From the NCBI RefSeq assembly GCF_001713375.1, contig NZ_CP016449.1, positions 3,782,001 to 3,846,000 of the forward strand: a DNA stretch of 64,000 nucleotides, read 5' to 3'. This document shows, one piece after another, positions 7,157-50,896 of the stretch. The first letter of the stretch is position 1. The number at the start of each line of letters is the position of its first letter. This DNA is from Hydrogenophaga sp. RAC07 (GTDB taxonomy: Bacteria > Pseudomonadota > Gammaproteobacteria > Burkholderiales > Burkholderiaceae_C). The position numbers and the translations under genes are program-made. The notes under the pieces are model-generated. The model did no database searches, had not been told where the DNA came from, and saw only the letters and a program-made list of their open reading frames with translations.

Positions 7157-8074
7157 ATGTTCAGCTACCGACACGCCTTCCACGCCGGCAACCACGCCGA
7201 CGTGCTCAAGCACACCACCCTCATCGCCACGCTGCGTCATTTGATGCAGAAAGAGGCCGGCATCACCTTGGTCGACACCCATGCCGGTGCCGGCTTGTAC
7301 CGCCTGGACGGCGACTACACCGAGACCGGGGGCGAGGCCAAGGACGGCGTGGTCAAGCTGATGGCGGCCTTGCGCGCCGCCGACCAGCCACCGGCCAAGG
7401 ACGTCTCGCCTGCGATCGACGACTACCTCGACATCATCGCCGGCTTCAACCCGTCGGGTACGCTGCGCGTTTACCCCGGGTCGCCGTTTGTGATGCAGCA
7501 GCTCATGCGCACCGAGTCGCGCGACCGGCTCAAGCTGTTTGAACTGCACCCCACCGACAGCAAGACGCTGGCGGCCAACATCGCCCAGCTTGACGCCGGA
7601 CGGCAGATCGCGGTGGCGCGGGAGGACGGTTTTGAAGGCCTGCGTCCGCTGCTGCCGCCGCCGCCGTCGGCCACCGGCTCCAAACGAGCCGTGGTGCTGA
7701 TCGATCCCAGCTACGAGATCAAGAGCGATTACGGCAAAGTGAGCGCCTGCATACACGAGGCGATCAAACGTTTTCCGACTGGAACCTACCTGGTCTGGTA
7801 CCCGGTGATTCCGCGGCCTGAGGCGCACGATCTCCCGCGCCGGCTCAAGACGCTGGCCAACCAGGCCCAAAAGCCCTGGCTCAACGCCACATTGGCCATC
7901 GGTCAGGACCCGACGCACGGCCCGGACGACCGGCCGGGGCTGACCGCCAGCGGCATGTTCGTGATCAACCCACCACACACGCTCAAGGCCGTGCTGCAGG
8001 TGGCCTTGCCTCAGCTGCTGACCCACCTGGGCCGGGGTCGGGGCAAGTCGCAAGCGCTCGAATCGGGCGGCTGA
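7157..8074 (+). CDS. rlmJ: 23S rRNA (adenine-2030-N6)-methyltransferase RlmJ
   Basis: The 305-residue enzyme methylates A2030 of 23S rRNA using S-adenosylmethionine. The N-terminus FSYRHAFHAGNHADVLKH is diagnostic of the RlmJ family, followed by a SAM-binding GAGLYRL segment and the catalytic loop IDPSYEIKSDY, a D-P-x-Y version of the N6-adenine motif. The ATG at 7157 puts the family N-terminus at residue 2; upstream codons in the same frame are not conserved. It is transcribed divergently from rplM and convergently with the CAP-domain gene. Confidence 0.93.
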   Translation: MFSYRHAFHAGNHADVLKHTTLIATLRHLMQKEAGITLVDTHAGAGLYRLDGDYTETGGEAKDGVVKLMAALRAADQPPAKDVSPAIDDYLDIIAGFNPSGTLRVYPGSPFVMQQLMRTESRDRLKLFELHPTDSKTLAANIAQLDAGRQIAVAREDGFEGLRPLLPPPPSATGSKRAVVLIDPSYEIKSDYGKVSACIHEAIKRFPTGTYLVWYPVIPRPEAHDLPRRLKTLANQAQKPWLNATLAIGQDPTHGPDDRPGLTASGMFVINPPHTLKAVLQVALPQLLTHLGRGRGKSQALESGG

Positions 8075-8085
8075 GCGGCCGACGC

Positions 8086-8733
8086 TCAGAGCGGCCGGGC
8101 CAGCGACATGGTCCAGTAGCGGCCGTAGTTGCTCCCGGCCTGCGAAACACAGCTCACCGCCACGTCGCGGAACTCGGCACGCATGATGTTCGCGCAATGG
8201 CCCGGGCTGGCCAACCACCCCGACACCACGTCCGACACACTCGCCTGACCGGCCGCGATGTTTTCGCCCGACCAGGACCACGCGTAACCTTCATCGGTCA
8301 TGCGGCGGGAGAATGTGCGCCCGTCCAGGCTGGTGTGAGAAAAGTAGTTGTTGACCGCCATGTCGCGCGAATGGCGGGCGGCGGCCGAGAACAGACGATC
8401 GTTCCAGGCCAGTGTGGTCGCTGCAGGCAGGGTGTTGCTGCCGCAGGTGCGGGACTGGGCGCGCGCCGCGTTGATCTGCTGCAAGAGCTCGGCGCGAAAG
8501 CTGGCCAGGCCGCAGGAGGTGGTGGCGTCCAGCGCAATCAGCGACGTGGCGCCGCCGGTGGACGGCGCCGCACCCGTGGCGCTCACGGGTGTCGGGCCCA
8601 CGGTGGCTGGCGCAGCGACGGACGCTTCGTCGCCCCCGCCTCCTCCACACGCTGCCAGGGAGAGCACCAGACCGAGAACGATTGAACAGTTGGTCGGGAG
8701 GGAACGGCGCTTGGTGAAAGGGCATGCGTGCAT
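8086..8733 (-). CDS. CAP-domain (SCP/PR1-like) lipoprotein
   Basis: The 215-residue product has a lipoprotein signal peptide ending in the lipobox LAAC followed by a run of glycines, then a low-complexity Ala/Pro/Thr linker and a CAP domain. CAP signatures are present as SAAARHSRDM, NNYFSHTSLDG, GENIA and SPGHCANIM, with a C-terminal YWTMSLARP. CAP proteins in bacteria are secreted and their activities are mostly unknown. The start at 8733 gives a normal signal peptide; an upstream ATG at 8787 would add 18 residues. The gene converges with rlmJ and is divergent from paaA. Confidence 0.85.
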   Translation of the reverse strand: MHACPFTKRRSLPTNCSIVLGLVLSLAACGGGGGDEASVAAPATVGPTPVSATGAAPSTGGATSLIALDATTSCGLASFRAELLQQINAARAQSRTCGSNTLPAATTLAWNDRLFSAAARHSRDMAVNNYFSHTSLDGRTFSRRMTDEGYAWSWSGENIAAGQASVSDVVSGWLASPGHCANIMRAEFRDVAVSCVSQAGSNYGRYWTMSLARPL

Positions 8734-45696: not shown

Positions 45697-46200
45697 TCAG
45701 ACCACGGTGACGTCGTGCACGGGCGCACCGGTCAGGGCCTGGAGTTGTTGGGGCGTGAGGGGAAACACCGCGTGCGGATGGCCGGCAGCGGCCCACACGG
45801 TGTCGAAGCGGAACAGCTGCGCGTCGATCAAGGTCACGACCGCCGTGGCGTGCGCCAGTGGCGACACCCCGCCGATGGAAAAGCCGGTGCTGCTCTTGAC
45901 GAAATCGGCATCGGCCCGGCCAAGCTTGCCACCGTCGGCACACACGATGGCCTGCACCTTTTTTTCGTCCACACGCAGGTCACCCGAGGTGACGACCAGC
46001 ACCGCCACCCCGTCGCTCTTGCGGCGAAACACGATGCTCTTGGCAATCTGCCCCAGCGCCACCCCCAATGCGTCGGCCGCCTGCTGCGCGGTGCGCGCGG
46101 CGTCTTCCAGCATGCGGGGCGGGTGCGGGTGGTTCAGTGCGCGCAGGTGATCGGTCACGCGTTGAACCGCCAGGGTGGTGGAGAAGGACACGTCGTTCAT
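45697..46200 (-). CDS. YbaK/EbsC-family aminoacyl-tRNA deacylase-like protein
   Basis: The 167-residue protein has the YbaK domain of trans-acting editing factors that remove misacylated amino acids from tRNA. Visible features are SIVFRRKSDG and GFSIGGVSPLAH with the conserved lysine and Gly-Gly-Val-Ser-Pro. Which tRNA it edits cannot be told. The ATG at 46200 gives the family length. It leads a three-gene leftward operon. Confidence 0.87.
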   Translation of the reverse strand: MNDVSFSTTLAVQRVTDHLRALNHPHPPRMLEDAARTAQQAADALGVALGQIAKSIVFRRKSDGVAVLVVTSGDLRVDEKKVQAIVCADGGKLGRADADFVKSSTGFSIGGVSPLAHATAVVTLIDAQLFRFDTVWAAAGHPHAVFPLTPQQLQALTGAPVHDVTVV

Positions 46201-46357
46201 GCGCTCCGATGGTATCGGTCCTCCGCGGACCTGACAGAACCGCGGCAGCAATCCCTAGGGATGCAGGTCATGAATCCTTGACCGCTGCGTGATCCCGTGC
46301 GGCGCCACCGGTGCAAGACTGCCCGTTCCTTGCAGCACAACACTTTGCGGAGCTCCC

Positions 46358-48259
46358 ATGTACGGCTGGCTGACCTTGAGCGACACAGGCGTCCTGGAAA
46401 TCAACTTTCCGGAATGGAACTTCGCCGTGGCGCCGGATCCGGCCACCCTCGACACGGCGGCGCGCTTGCAGCAGGTGTCGGCCGCCCTGGAGGCGGCGTG
46501 GCCGGCCCCGGCGGACCTGGCGTTGAAACAGGCGGCGCGCGCAGCACTGCTCGCGGCCTGCCCGCACATCCCCGACGAGTACCTCTCGTACGCCATCGCC
46601 ATGGGCATCGCGTTCTACCAGGTGCACCGCGCCGACCATGTGCAGGCGCAGGGCGTGATAGCCGCCACCGTGGATGCCGAACTGGGCGGGGAGCCGCCCG
46701 ACGCAAGCCCTGGCATCGGGCAGATGGTGCAGCGCCTCAAGGCGGTGGGCTTCCTGCTGCCCGACATCAGCCGCCCCCTCATGGTCAACACCTTCTGCAC
46801 CGAGCGCCGCAACGACGTCTTCTGCACACCCCACAGCCGCGGCCTGATGGCGCTGCGCGCGTCGGCCACACAACTGGCCGATCAGGTCAAGCTGGTGGTT
46901 GCCGTCGAAATGCGCCACGCGGTCTGGACCACCATCCACCTGGCCCTGGTCTCCAGCCCGAAGGCCGGGCTGGCGCCCTTGACGCAGGCCATCACGGCCT
47001 TGTTGAAAGCACGGCGGATCGACGTGTTTCAGCACCTGGCGGAGCGCCACAGTGCCGACGAAGACACCTTGCTGCGCTGCTGGCGCGACCGCGGCTTGCG
47101 CCAGGGCCTGCTGGACGCACAGGCCCAGCCCGAGCGCTCTGCCGCCGACATCGCACTCACGGCGTTCGCCAACATCACCGCCCACAACCAGCTGGAAAAC
47201 GAAGTGCTCGCGCGCACCACCGTGGCCGCGGTGGACGCCGGTGTGATGCTCGGCGAACACACCGACAGCAGCCGCGCGGTGCTGCGGCAACTGCGTGAGG
47301 CCGCGTCCGCCAGCCAGCGGCGCCAGACAAACGCCTTGCAGCGGCAATTGCGCCAGGCTGGCGCGCGCCCGGACCCGACGCTGCCGAGCCGCGACATCCT
47401 GCAGTCGTGGTCCGTCGAGCAGCTGGTGCGCTGGATCGACGGTCCGCTGGTCGGCGCCCGGCGCGGTCGTGCGGTCGACCGCCGGCAGGTGGTCGCCCAA
47501 TCCACGCCCGCCCGGAAACCCGTGCAGCGTCCCCCGCGGCCGGGCGCGCCTTCCCTCGCGGCGCCCGACGAGGACCCTCCCCTGACCGAAGACGATGTCG
47601 GGCGCATCGAGGCCGAGGCCTACACGGCCGCTGCGGTGTTTTTCCTCGGCGACATCCACGACCTGCTGGCGCTGGGAGTGCAGCTGAGGGCGCCTGAAGG
47701 GCCGCAGAACGCCTGCCAGGCCATCGTGGGCGATCTTCAGAAGCTCGCCCAGGCGCATGGCGGCGTGGATGTGGAGCACGCACAGGTACTGCTGACCGAA
47801 ACCGAGCAACGGATACAGGCGCTGCGGGCGAGCATCCGGATCGCGCAAGCCACGGCCGATCTGCGGGCGCGGTTTGACCAGGCGCTCGGCGCCGCACTGG
47901 CCATGGAACCGCTGTCGCCGGGCCGCCGTGAAGGCGGCGTGATCGCCTGTCCGATGCAAGCCGACGCCTGGGGCTGGGTTGCCCAGCAGTACCACCAGCG
48001 GTGGTTGTCGAGTGCGAAGGCGTTGCGCATCGCGGGTCAATGGGTGCGGCTCGATGTGAACGAGGCCCTGGCCCTGTATGTCACGGGCAGCAGCCTGAGC
48101 CAGTACGCCTTCGATGTGTCGGTGCACCTGTGGCGCCGCCGGCTCGGCAAGACCAGCCTGCCCAGCGACGACCAGGGCGTCTATCCCCCCATGAACACCG
48201 AGGACTGGTTCGACACCTACGTGACCTGCTGCGTGCTGCACATCCCGTCCACCCACTGA
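46358..48259 (+). CDS. Unassigned 633-residue protein, tandem paralogue 1
   Basis: I do not recognise a family. The protein is soluble: it has no signal peptide and no membrane helix. It is collinear with the next gene: an N-terminal block with PHIPDEYLSYA near residue 70, a mostly helical middle, SWSVEQLVRWIDGPL near 350, a Pro/Arg linker near 370-405, FFLGDIHDLLALG near 427, and a C-terminal block with ALALYVTGSS, FDVSVHLWRRR and MNTEDWFDTY. No Walker, nuclease or protease motif was seen. The ATG at 46358 has GGAG 6 bases upstream. The 33-base gap to its paralogue indicates co-transcription. Confidence 0.85.
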   Translation: MYGWLTLSDTGVLEINFPEWNFAVAPDPATLDTAARLQQVSAALEAAWPAPADLALKQAARAALLAACPHIPDEYLSYAIAMGIAFYQVHRADHVQAQGVIAATVDAELGGEPPDASPGIGQMVQRLKAVGFLLPDISRPLMVNTFCTERRNDVFCTPHSRGLMALRASATQLADQVKLVVAVEMRHAVWTTIHLALVSSPKAGLAPLTQAITALLKARRIDVFQHLAERHSADEDTLLRCWRDRGLRQGLLDAQAQPERSAADIALTAFANITAHNQLENEVLARTTVAAVDAGVMLGEHTDSSRAVLRQLREAASASQRRQTNALQRQLRQAGARPDPTLPSRDILQSWSVEQLVRWIDGPLVGARRGRAVDRRQVVAQSTPARKPVQRPPRPGAPSLAAPDEDPPLTEDDVGRIEAEAYTAAAVFFLGDIHDLLALGVQLRAPEGPQNACQAIVGDLQKLAQAHGGVDVEHAQVLLTETEQRIQALRASIRIAQATADLRARFDQALGAALAMEPLSPGRREGGVIACPMQADAWGWVAQQYHQRWLSSAKALRIAGQWVRLDVNEALALYVTGSSLSQYAFDVSVHLWRRRLGKTSLPSDDQGVYPPMNTEDWFDTYVTCCVLHIPSTH

Positions 48260-48292
48260 ACGGACAACCACCCCATTCCGAAAGGACACACG

Positions 48293-50227
48293 ATGCTGAC
48301 ATGGCTGGAATTGATGGAGGACGCCAGCGGCGCCGAGCTGCAGGCCCGGTGGCCCGACTGGACCTTCCTGTCGCCACCGGACTTCACTCCGCAGCGCACG
48401 ACAGAGCGCAACCGGGAAATGATGGAATTCCTGACCCTCGCCTACAAGGACCGGCCCGCCGAAACCACGGCCAAAGGTGAAGCTTTCCTCGGCCTGAAGA
48501 GCTTGCTGCCGTTCGTCCCCGACGAGCACCTGTCGTTCGCCCTGAACGCCTACCTCGCCCACCACCGGGCGGAAACCCGCAGCGATCGCATCGCCATCGT
48601 CAACAGCCAGATTGACCAGGAGATCACACTTCTCGGGTCACTGGCTGCACCCCACGCCACAGCGCTGAAAGCCTGGCGGCAGCTGGCCTGCCTGCTGCCG
48701 CCCCAATACCTGCGCCAGTGCACGCGTGGCCCGCTGCTGCAGTTGCGCCAGTCGTTGTACGAGCAGCACCCCAAAGAAGCGCCGTTCAAGACCTGGGCGA
48801 GCTCATTCGACAGACTCGGCAACGCGCTGGTTTCTCAAAAAGTTCCGGCAGCAGATTCGGTCCTGGAAGAAGTCCGGCGCGTGGTGCTGACCCGCCCGGT
48901 GGTGGCACTGCCCGACACCTGGCGGCACATCGATCAGCTGATCAAAACCCACCGGCTCGGGATCGTGCAGGCGGTGGTGGAGGAGCGCCGCCGCCTGCCT
49001 GCCAGCCTGCCGTGGGTCAACCTGCACGACGTGGTGGCCCAGGGCATTAAAGACGCGGCAATGGACAGCATGACGCCACTGACCCAGGTGGCCAACACCG
49101 CTGTGGACTGGCTTGCCGAAATCGAACAGCTGAACGTGGACGAGACACTGCGCCGCGCGGTGCAGACGGTCGACGCGGGCCAATCCCTGGGCGAACCCAA
49201 GACCACCGAGAGCCGCCAGGCCTTGACCCGGATGCGCGAGATCGACGCGCAGAACGACCACCGCATGGCAGCGCTGCAGGCGGCCTGGTTGCAGGATGCA
49301 CGGCCAGCCGACATGGTGGTCGCACTCGTCGAGCGAACGGCTGACCAGGCCACGGCCGACGCCGTGTCTTCATGGTCGGTGGACCGCCTGCTGGCCTGGA
49401 TCGAAGGCCCGCTGGCCCAGCCCGCCAACCGCGCCGTGGCGCTGGACCGGCGGCGGGTGGCCCAGGCCGCCAGACGTTCGCGCGCAGTGCCGGCAGGCCC
49501 TGCCCAGCCGCCATCGCAGGCTGCGGAAGAAGCACCCGAAGACCCGGAGACGCTGGCAGAGGTGGACCACCTGATCCAGAACGGTCTGGCCGCCACGGCC
49601 GAGTTTTTCCTGGGGGATTGCCGCGATCTCGTGACCGCAGCGAAACGGCTCCAGATTCCCGACAAAACAGTGCGGCCCTGCCAGGCGCTGCTGGCCGATC
49701 TGAAGGCGCTGGCCACCGACCCCACCACCCCGTCGGAAACCGCTGCAAGGGACCTGCTGGCCCGCGCCGAGAGCGCACTTGACGCGCTGCGTGTCAGCGT
49801 TGGCCACGCCCGGACACTGGACAGCCGGTTGCAGCGCTTTCAAGACGCCCTGCTCACCGCCCTGAAGCGCAACCCGATCGTGCTGGGCAAACGCCATGGC
49901 GGCGAGATTGCCTTCCCGCTTCAACCGGTCGAATGGGGTGATGTTGTCCAGCGCCTGCACGGCAAGCGCCTGGCACCATCGCACACCCTGTGGCAGGACA
50001 GCACAACCAGGCTTTCCTTGCGCGAAGACCAGGCGCTGGCGCTGTATGTGACCGCCAGCAGCGAGAGCAAATACCTGTTCGATGTGTCAGTGCACCTGTG
50101 GCGCCGCAGGGCCGGGTGCACCACACCGCCGGCGCTCAGCACCGAGCCGTTGGCGGCGATGAACACCGCCGACTGGTTCGACACCTACATTCCCTGCCTG
50201 GTGTTGCACGTGCCCCAGGCCAGGTGA
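48293..50227 (+). CDS. Unassigned 644-residue protein, tandem paralogue 2
   Basis: This is a paralogue of the preceding gene with shared landmarks in the same order: LPFVPDEHLSFA near residue 73, SWSVDRLLAWIEGPL near 359, a basic Pro/Ala linker near 375-415, FFLGDCRDLV near 437, and the C-terminal ALALYVTASS, FDVSVHLWRRR and MNTADWFDTY. Other regions have diverged, so the duplication is old or under different selection. No signal peptide or membrane segment is present. AAAGGA precedes the ATG. Function is unknown; strong conservation of the C-terminal block suggests a shared binding surface. Confidence 0.85.
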   Translation: MLTWLELMEDASGAELQARWPDWTFLSPPDFTPQRTTERNREMMEFLTLAYKDRPAETTAKGEAFLGLKSLLPFVPDEHLSFALNAYLAHHRAETRSDRIAIVNSQIDQEITLLGSLAAPHATALKAWRQLACLLPPQYLRQCTRGPLLQLRQSLYEQHPKEAPFKTWASSFDRLGNALVSQKVPAADSVLEEVRRVVLTRPVVALPDTWRHIDQLIKTHRLGIVQAVVEERRRLPASLPWVNLHDVVAQGIKDAAMDSMTPLTQVANTAVDWLAEIEQLNVDETLRRAVQTVDAGQSLGEPKTTESRQALTRMREIDAQNDHRMAALQAAWLQDARPADMVVALVERTADQATADAVSSWSVDRLLAWIEGPLAQPANRAVALDRRRVAQAARRSRAVPAGPAQPPSQAAEEAPEDPETLAEVDHLIQNGLAATAEFFLGDCRDLVTAAKRLQIPDKTVRPCQALLADLKALATDPTTPSETAARDLLARAESALDALRVSVGHARTLDSRLQRFQDALLTALKRNPIVLGKRHGGEIAFPLQPVEWGDVVQRLHGKRLAPSHTLWQDSTTRLSLREDQALALYVTASSESKYLFDVSVHLWRRRAGCTTPPALSTEPLAAMNTADWFDTYIPCLVLHVPQAR

Positions 50228-50254: not shown

Positions 50255-50896
50255 TCAGGCCGCGCGCTTGACCAGCAACAAGCTGGCCCCCATGGCCATG
50301 AGCACACCGCCGAACACGCGGTTCTGCGCCCGCCGGGCCCGGGCCGTGGCGAGCCAGCGCTGCGCACGCGAGGCGAGGAAGGCGTAACCGTGCATGACCA
50401 CGAGATCAACCCCGATGGTCGTGACCAACAACACCAGCAACTGCAGCCACAAGGAGCGCTGCGGATCGATGAATTGCGGCAGCACCGCCACCATGAACAC
50501 GATGCCCTTGGGATTGGTCACGTTGGTGAAGAAGCCGGTGACAAAGCGTTCCCGCGCGGACGGCACACCCGCCTGCGCCGTCACATGCCCACCGCTGACA
50601 ACGGTGGCGCTCACCGACGAGCGCCACTGCTTCAAACCCAGCCAGATCAGGTAGCCCGCCCCGGCGAACTTGACCACCGTGAAGGCCGTGGCCGACGCCA
50701 GCAGCAGCGCGCCCACGCCCACCCCGGCCACCAGCAGGATCACCGCCAGCCCCAGCTGCAGGCCCGCGATGGTGGCGCTGGTCTTTTGCACACCGTAGGC
50801 CAGGCCGTGCGTCATGGACAGCACCGCGCCCGATCCCGGCGACAGGGCAATGGCCCAGGAGGCCAGGAAATACGCCAGCCAGACTTGCAGTTCCAT
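50255..50896 (-). CDS. LysE/RhtB-family amino-acid exporter
   Basis: The 213-residue membrane protein has about five or six helices and the family motif PGSGAVLSMTHGLAYGVQ near residue 20, with FFTNVTNPKGIVFM in the middle. Relatives export homoserine, leucine or similar amino acids. It is the last gene of the liu operon, 13 bases after the HMG-CoA lyase gene. Export of surplus leucine or a related amino acid would fit, but that is inference. Confidence 0.88.
   Translation of the reverse strand: MELQVWLAYFLASWAIALSPGSGAVLSMTHGLAYGVQKTSATIAGLQLGLAVILLVAGVGVGALLLASATAFTVVKFAGAGYLIWLGLKQWRSSVSATVVSGGHVTAQAGVPSARERFVTGFFTNVTNPKGIVFMVAVLPQFIDPQRSLWLQLLVLLVTTIGVDLVVMHGYAFLASRAQRWLATARARRAQNRVFGGVLMAMGASLLLVKRAA

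Follow-up and report, generated by a model that had tools for sequence, protein, structure and literature searches.

Diversified bacterial multigene arrays, such as Avs-type sensors and polymorphic toxin/immunity arrays, pair a variable recognition part with a common part. We analysed a 64,000-nucleotide stretch of the Hydrogenophaga sp. RAC07 genome (C1:3782001-3846000, from a single contig of 4.67 Mb; hereafter the window), in which two adjacent genes encode members of one protein family. Like the known arrays, this family has tandem paralogues, a divergent and a conserved region, a chromosomal insertion site and broken copies. Unlike them, it has no convincing defence-model match or recognised effector domain, and its conserved part is C-terminal and lacks a convincing fold match. 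Judged by sequence comparison, the family is rare, lineage-restricted, undescribed and diversifying. Our best guess is that it combines variable recognition with a common output, and we tentatively read it as an undescribed modular family in which the N-terminal part recognizes variable targets, the C-terminal part provides a common output and the copies diversify, most plausibly in intracellular conflict. The gene pair and its parts are as follows.

46358..48259, plus strand: family gene 1 (P0001, 633 aa), in the subfamily of P0008, P0009, P0010 and L064 (open reading frame (ORF), translation, homologues, tree)
47843..48256, plus strand: conserved C-terminal domain of gene 1 (conservation)
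48293..50227, plus strand: family gene 2 (P0002, 644 aa), in the subfamily of P0004, P0005 and P0006 (ORF, translation, homologues, tree)
48389..49294, plus strand: predicted N-terminal region of gene 2 (residues 33-334), divergent and entirely helical, with two strands ahead of it at 4-10 and 13-19 (AlphaFold2 model)
49298..49537, plus strand: linker of gene 2, residues 336-415 (AlphaFold2 model and motif conservation)
49544..49801, plus strand: predicted helical bundle of gene 2, approximately residues 418-503, with FFLGD (AlphaFold2 model)
49808..50224, plus strand: conserved C-terminal domain of gene 2, residues 506-644 (prediction of the domain alone and conservation)

Both ORFs are intact, starting with ATG at 46358 and 48293 on the same strand and separated by 33 bp, and their products are 31% identical from end to end (BLASTP, 201 bits, E 3e-60), much more than chance would give, which bears out the adjacent paralogous genes described in the first-pass annotation of this DNA. 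The GC content at the three codon positions (0.725/0.491/0.877 in gene 1 and 0.703/0.480/0.821 in gene 2) is what protein-coding DNA of such base composition normally shows; an antisense ORF of 765 aa (46268-48565, minus strand) is therefore most likely a composition artefact. The order of motifs that had been noted was found at the places given, namely PDEYLS or PDEHLS near residues 70-80, SWSVxxLxxWIxGPL near 350-370, a Pro/Arg-rich linker, FFLGD near 430-440 and a conserved end, except that the first of these, PxxPDExLS, is confined to the pair and its close relatives and is not a family-wide feature. Neither protein has a strongly hydrophobic stretch (maximum 19-residue Kyte-Doolittle means of 1.54 and 0.89), in line with the soluble proteins that had been proposed, and the two are probably intracellular and modular. 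Because the tree places genes 1 and 2 in separate, supported subfamilies, the pair joins two old subfamilies and does not stem from a recent duplication.

The annotation had also assigned the proteins to no family and recognized no enzyme motif in them, and every library that we tried agreed. Pfam-A gave no match over cut-off in the two window proteins or in 10 further members; NCBIfam gave none over cut-off in the window proteins and none at E 0.01 in 25 members (alignment A3); PHROGs gave no match of note in the window proteins and none at E 0.01 in the same 25 members; and PADLOC-DB 2.0.0 gave no match for the two window proteins. All matches listed for these two proteins in the four libraries were below cut-off or had E ≥ 0.06, including one to an NCBIfam type III secretion system (T3SS) translocon model (E 0.061; 12.8 bits, where the cut-off is 37), which we dismissed as sub-threshold. 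Among PDB sequences there was no match for P0002 (best E 1.7) or for the C-terminal domain profile (best E 0.22). Structural similarity to a known family, named beforehand as the finding that would overturn the idea of a new family, was sought by comparing the predicted models with the PDB, and nothing convincing emerged (no search was made with the N-terminal part by itself). One comparison showed a partial likeness in beta arrangement, but its Z was much lower than a true relative would give, and the best Foldseek match, at E 0.7, was to other chains. The motifs had raised the idea of an ADP-ribosyltransferase-like or RNase-like C-terminal domain, which found no support in this fold search. 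The literature listings that we searched held no paper on the string FDVSVHLWRR and none on tandem gene conversion in Hydrogenophaga, and those on Hydrogenophaga leucine-rich repeats (LRRs) were unrelated, judging by title. As far as searched, the family is thus new, while diversified tandem paralogues as such are already a known kind.

The AlphaFold2 model of P0002 has a pLDDT of 85.5, and the C-terminal domain (506-644), predicted alone, reaches a pLDDT of 94.6 and a pTM of 0.88. According to these predictions, a divergent helical N-terminal part is followed by a linker, then by a helical bundle and finally by a C-terminal beta domain, which is conserved. The linker of gene 2 is of low confidence in parts, partly Pro/Arg-rich, and carries the SWSV..WIxGP motif. 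The C-terminal domain, a beta domain by prediction, is made up of a helix, GG, YVTxSS, FDVSVHLW and VLHV; within it, T587 and H639 are invariant and H556 is near-invariant, a pattern of conservation compatible with an active or binding site. Mean pairwise identity, taken over 29 of the 31 members of alignment A2 (two L014 rows were left out), is 19.4% in residues 1-335, 28.3% in 336-415, 32.7% in 416-505 and 49.8% in 506-644. Two pairs of copies within the L003 array were compared at the DNA level. Between copies 3 and 5, identity climbs from 38-66% (columns 1-1100) through 75-84% (1101-1600) to 99-100% (1601-1900), with 71% in the last partial window, and this near-identity towards the end indicates that the 3' parts of the two copies have undergone recombination or gene conversion. 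Copies 2 and 4 show a mild rise only, from 46-73% to 65-79% in the last four windows.

We then traced the family beyond the window. Protein searches returned four clusters for gene 2 and six for gene 1, the window's own near-identical ones counted, and a third search with the A2 profile found nothing new; since each search scored only the approximately 8000 candidates that shared most words with the query, rarer relatives were possibly missed. Beside copies of 98-99% identity, the relatives of P0001 were 87, 74, 44, 31 and 31% identical to it, and those of P0002 75, 51 and 45%. A scan of genome contigs yielded 12 loci, from Hydrogenophaga, metagenome-assembled genomes (MAGs) of other Burkholderiales, a gammaproteobacterial MAG (two loci) and one alphaproteobacterium. 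Nine of 67 Hydrogenophaga genomes carry the family (that of the window counted), and wider samples of the family (2/299), order (2/399) and phylum (2/398) each time returned the window's genome and G114 alone. In the order of the alphaproteobacterium, four of 25 genomes match as distant relatives (itself counted, the other three by the C-terminal domain), and in the class sample around it the only match among 289 genomes was the alphaproteobacterium again. Searches of plasmid and phage collections with the two window proteins, and of viral contigs with alignments A1 and A5, gave no match.

Copy number varies: G318 carries six copies in tandem, G337 three and G344 two; G350 has four full-length copies elsewhere, a broken copy (L013) and a fragment; G347 has one copy and remnants; and G114, G319 and G340 have one detected copy each, the kind of single-copy homologue that the annotation had suggested looking for. 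These counts come mostly from draft assemblies (approximately 110 contigs in G319, 90 in G340, and approximately 40 or more in seven of the nine positive genomes). The GC content of the family genes lies within approximately 6 points of that of the locus in Hydrogenophaga. The alphaproteobacterial members in L059, L060, L061 and L062, by comparison, have a GC content of 0.38-0.50 against 0.45-0.57 in the flanks, approximately 6-14 points lower, which suggests acquisition or relaxed composition there. Near two of these members lie similar-looking small acidic proteins of 93-101 aa (L060:5123-5428 and L061:4614-4895), with no Pfam match over cut-off.

The family has one site in common in all nine positive Hydrogenophaga genomes, beside ybaK and/or lysE, where either its genes or a broken copy are found. 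The genes that border it in the window, whose names ybaK and lysE do not rest on family matches, are the following.

45697..46200, minus strand: YbaK-like gene, left border of the insertion (ORF list, site comparison)
50255..50896, minus strand: LysE-like gene, right border of the insertion (ORF list, site comparison)

We compared the site in 30 genomes (nine positive and 21 negative), obtaining the locus of a neighbouring HMG-CoA-lyase-like gene from 29. Seven of the nine positive genomes have the insertion between ybaK and lysE. In G318, which has no ybaK match, the family genes are flanked by a DsbA-like gene and lysE; in G337, which has no lysE match, their neighbours are ybaK and the lyase gene. 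A further copy in G344 sits on the other side of lysE, towards the lyase gene and before it, and in G350 it is the broken copy that occupies the ybaK/lysE site. No family match was found at any of the 20 negative loci. Twelve of these present an empty site, with the lysE and ybaK matches less than 100 bp apart, and in three of the empty sites ybaK apparently starts 2 to 4 bases past the lysE stop. Among the others, the distance is 505 bp in G320, ybaK follows the lyase gene without a lysE match in G301 and G303, and the stretch compared contains no lysE-ybaK pair in G304, G310, G331, G343 and G354. As to the region upstream of the arrays, ACTG occurs 30-80 bp before 10 of 14 first-in-array genes, against 16% of 267 background regions, a motif that was picked after looking; in the window the region concerned is 46278-46327, upstream of gene 1. 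No 7- or 8-mer was shared among the upstream regions at a count above that in random sets.

On the reading that we prefer, of variable recognition joined to a common output, each copy would bind a target of its own through the N-terminal part, while the C-terminal domain would serve a partner, assembly step or output common to all copies. The set of copies would diversify under changing pressure, most plausibly an intracellular conflict with a phage, mobile element or toxin. Of the possible settings, conflict or defence seems the most plausible, yet it is the weakest step of this explanation. Several observations weigh against the proposal. The only match to a defence model, to the PADLOC candidate PDC-M61A, is weak (E 0.0041) and was seen in one of 25 members, and no defence or mobile gene was recognized beside the loci, which were inspected by eye only. 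Relatives of approximately 75% identity diverge evenly by region (76/71/74/76 and 75/69/76/75), with no sign that the N-terminus changes faster over short times, and saturation may account for some of the identity gradient between paralogues. Recombination is clear in one of the two pairs compared, both from the one array L003. In the lyase-gene tree, where the family label needs three changes, a single clade of the nine positive genomes is not rejected (p-AU 0.141), and inheritance therefore looks mostly vertical. A variant of the proposal, in which an intracellular recognition system not described before diversifies at its N-terminus, has a new-fold C-terminal domain homogenised by recombination and possibly works with an LRR family, seems to us unlikely.

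That LRR family is of the ribonuclease-inhibitor type by profile (match to 1dfj, E 3.9e-07), with no Pfam match over cut-off, and is a companion of the family and not a relative: the LRR profile matches LRR structures, whereas the profiles and models of the family match none. It occurs in six of 67 Hydrogenophaga genomes, all six among the nine that carry the family and none among the other 58 (Fisher p 8.4e-07). In a tree-aware test, one independent pair was left on starred branches (sign test p 1). Because the positive genomes are mostly one clade and independent pairs are too few, we did not accept the co-occurrence as a functional link. The LRR loci are L006:6586-8046, C1:3412501-3413898 (L078, in the window's genome and outside the window), L079, L080, L081 and L082; G337 has three LRR copies side by side, and in L078, L080, L081 and L082 the LRR gene adjoins a PAS/chemotaxis-like gene, as seen by eye. 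In L006, a remnant of the family C-terminus in two frames (8047-8285) lies behind the LRR gene, between DsbA-like and YbaK-like genes. A fusion of this tail to the LRR protein was considered and rejected, the LRR frame having stopped before the tail pieces in two frames, and the arrangement reads as an LRR gene beside a family remnant. A 991-aa LRR protein near the alphaproteobacterial member in L061 was likewise rejected as a relative of the genus LRR protein (BLASTP best E 0.30).

Another reading would make the proteins effectors or toxins that are delivered into other cells and diversify against their targets. In its favour, the family is multicopy, variable and sporadic, and it co-occurs with the ribonuclease-inhibitor-type LRR family. 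We consider delivery improbable, as the type VI secretion system (T6SS) sheath (PF05943) was detected in none of the nine positive genomes, seven of them drafts of approximately 40 or more contigs, and in two of 67 in the genus, and the T3SS secretin (TIGR02516) passed its cut-off in none of the nine and in three of 67 (G324, G328 and G361; sub-threshold matches, as of other secretins, occur in 66 of 67). The window proteins, moreover, are without a strongly hydrophobic stretch. Still less probable is an element, selfish or in decay, that does nothing for its host. Insertion at one site, the remnants in L006 and the broken copy in L013 would fit such an element, but no transposase or integrase was recognized by eye alongside, the phage, plasmid and viral searches above were negative, and long intact frames have been kept over large distances.

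The first-pass annotation suggested that the two proteins form a heteromer or have split roles, and for the window pair this is a doubtful alternative. The genes are neighbours on one strand with a short gap, two old subfamilies stand side by side, and the identities of relatives of P0001 and P0002 can be matched (74/75% and 44/45%), a hint of joint inheritance, although this pairing was hand-picked from lists that also hold 87, 51 and 31%. As a general rule the heteromer fails: one copy was detected in G114, G319 and G340, the last two of them drafts, and 3 to 6 copies elsewhere, which counters only an obligate pair across the whole family. Somewhat less doubtful, and still unlikely in our view, is an enzyme or scaffold with a housekeeping role specific to the lineage, which was duplicated, whose copies then drifted apart and which plays no part in conflict. 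It would account for positive genomes that are mostly one clade in the genus, for close relatives that diverge evenly along the protein and for a GC content near that of the locus; the variation in copy number, the broken copy and remnants, and relatives with an empty site argue against it.

The C-terminal domain, with a confident predicted structure and no convincing PDB match, is a good target for structural biology. Even if the proteins turn out to be an enzyme specific to the lineage, they would make up a new family. Should the reading of variable recognition prove true, related Hydrogenophaga with 0, 1, 2, 3 or 6 copies at one site would constitute a natural experiment, and the family would represent a new intracellular recognition system.

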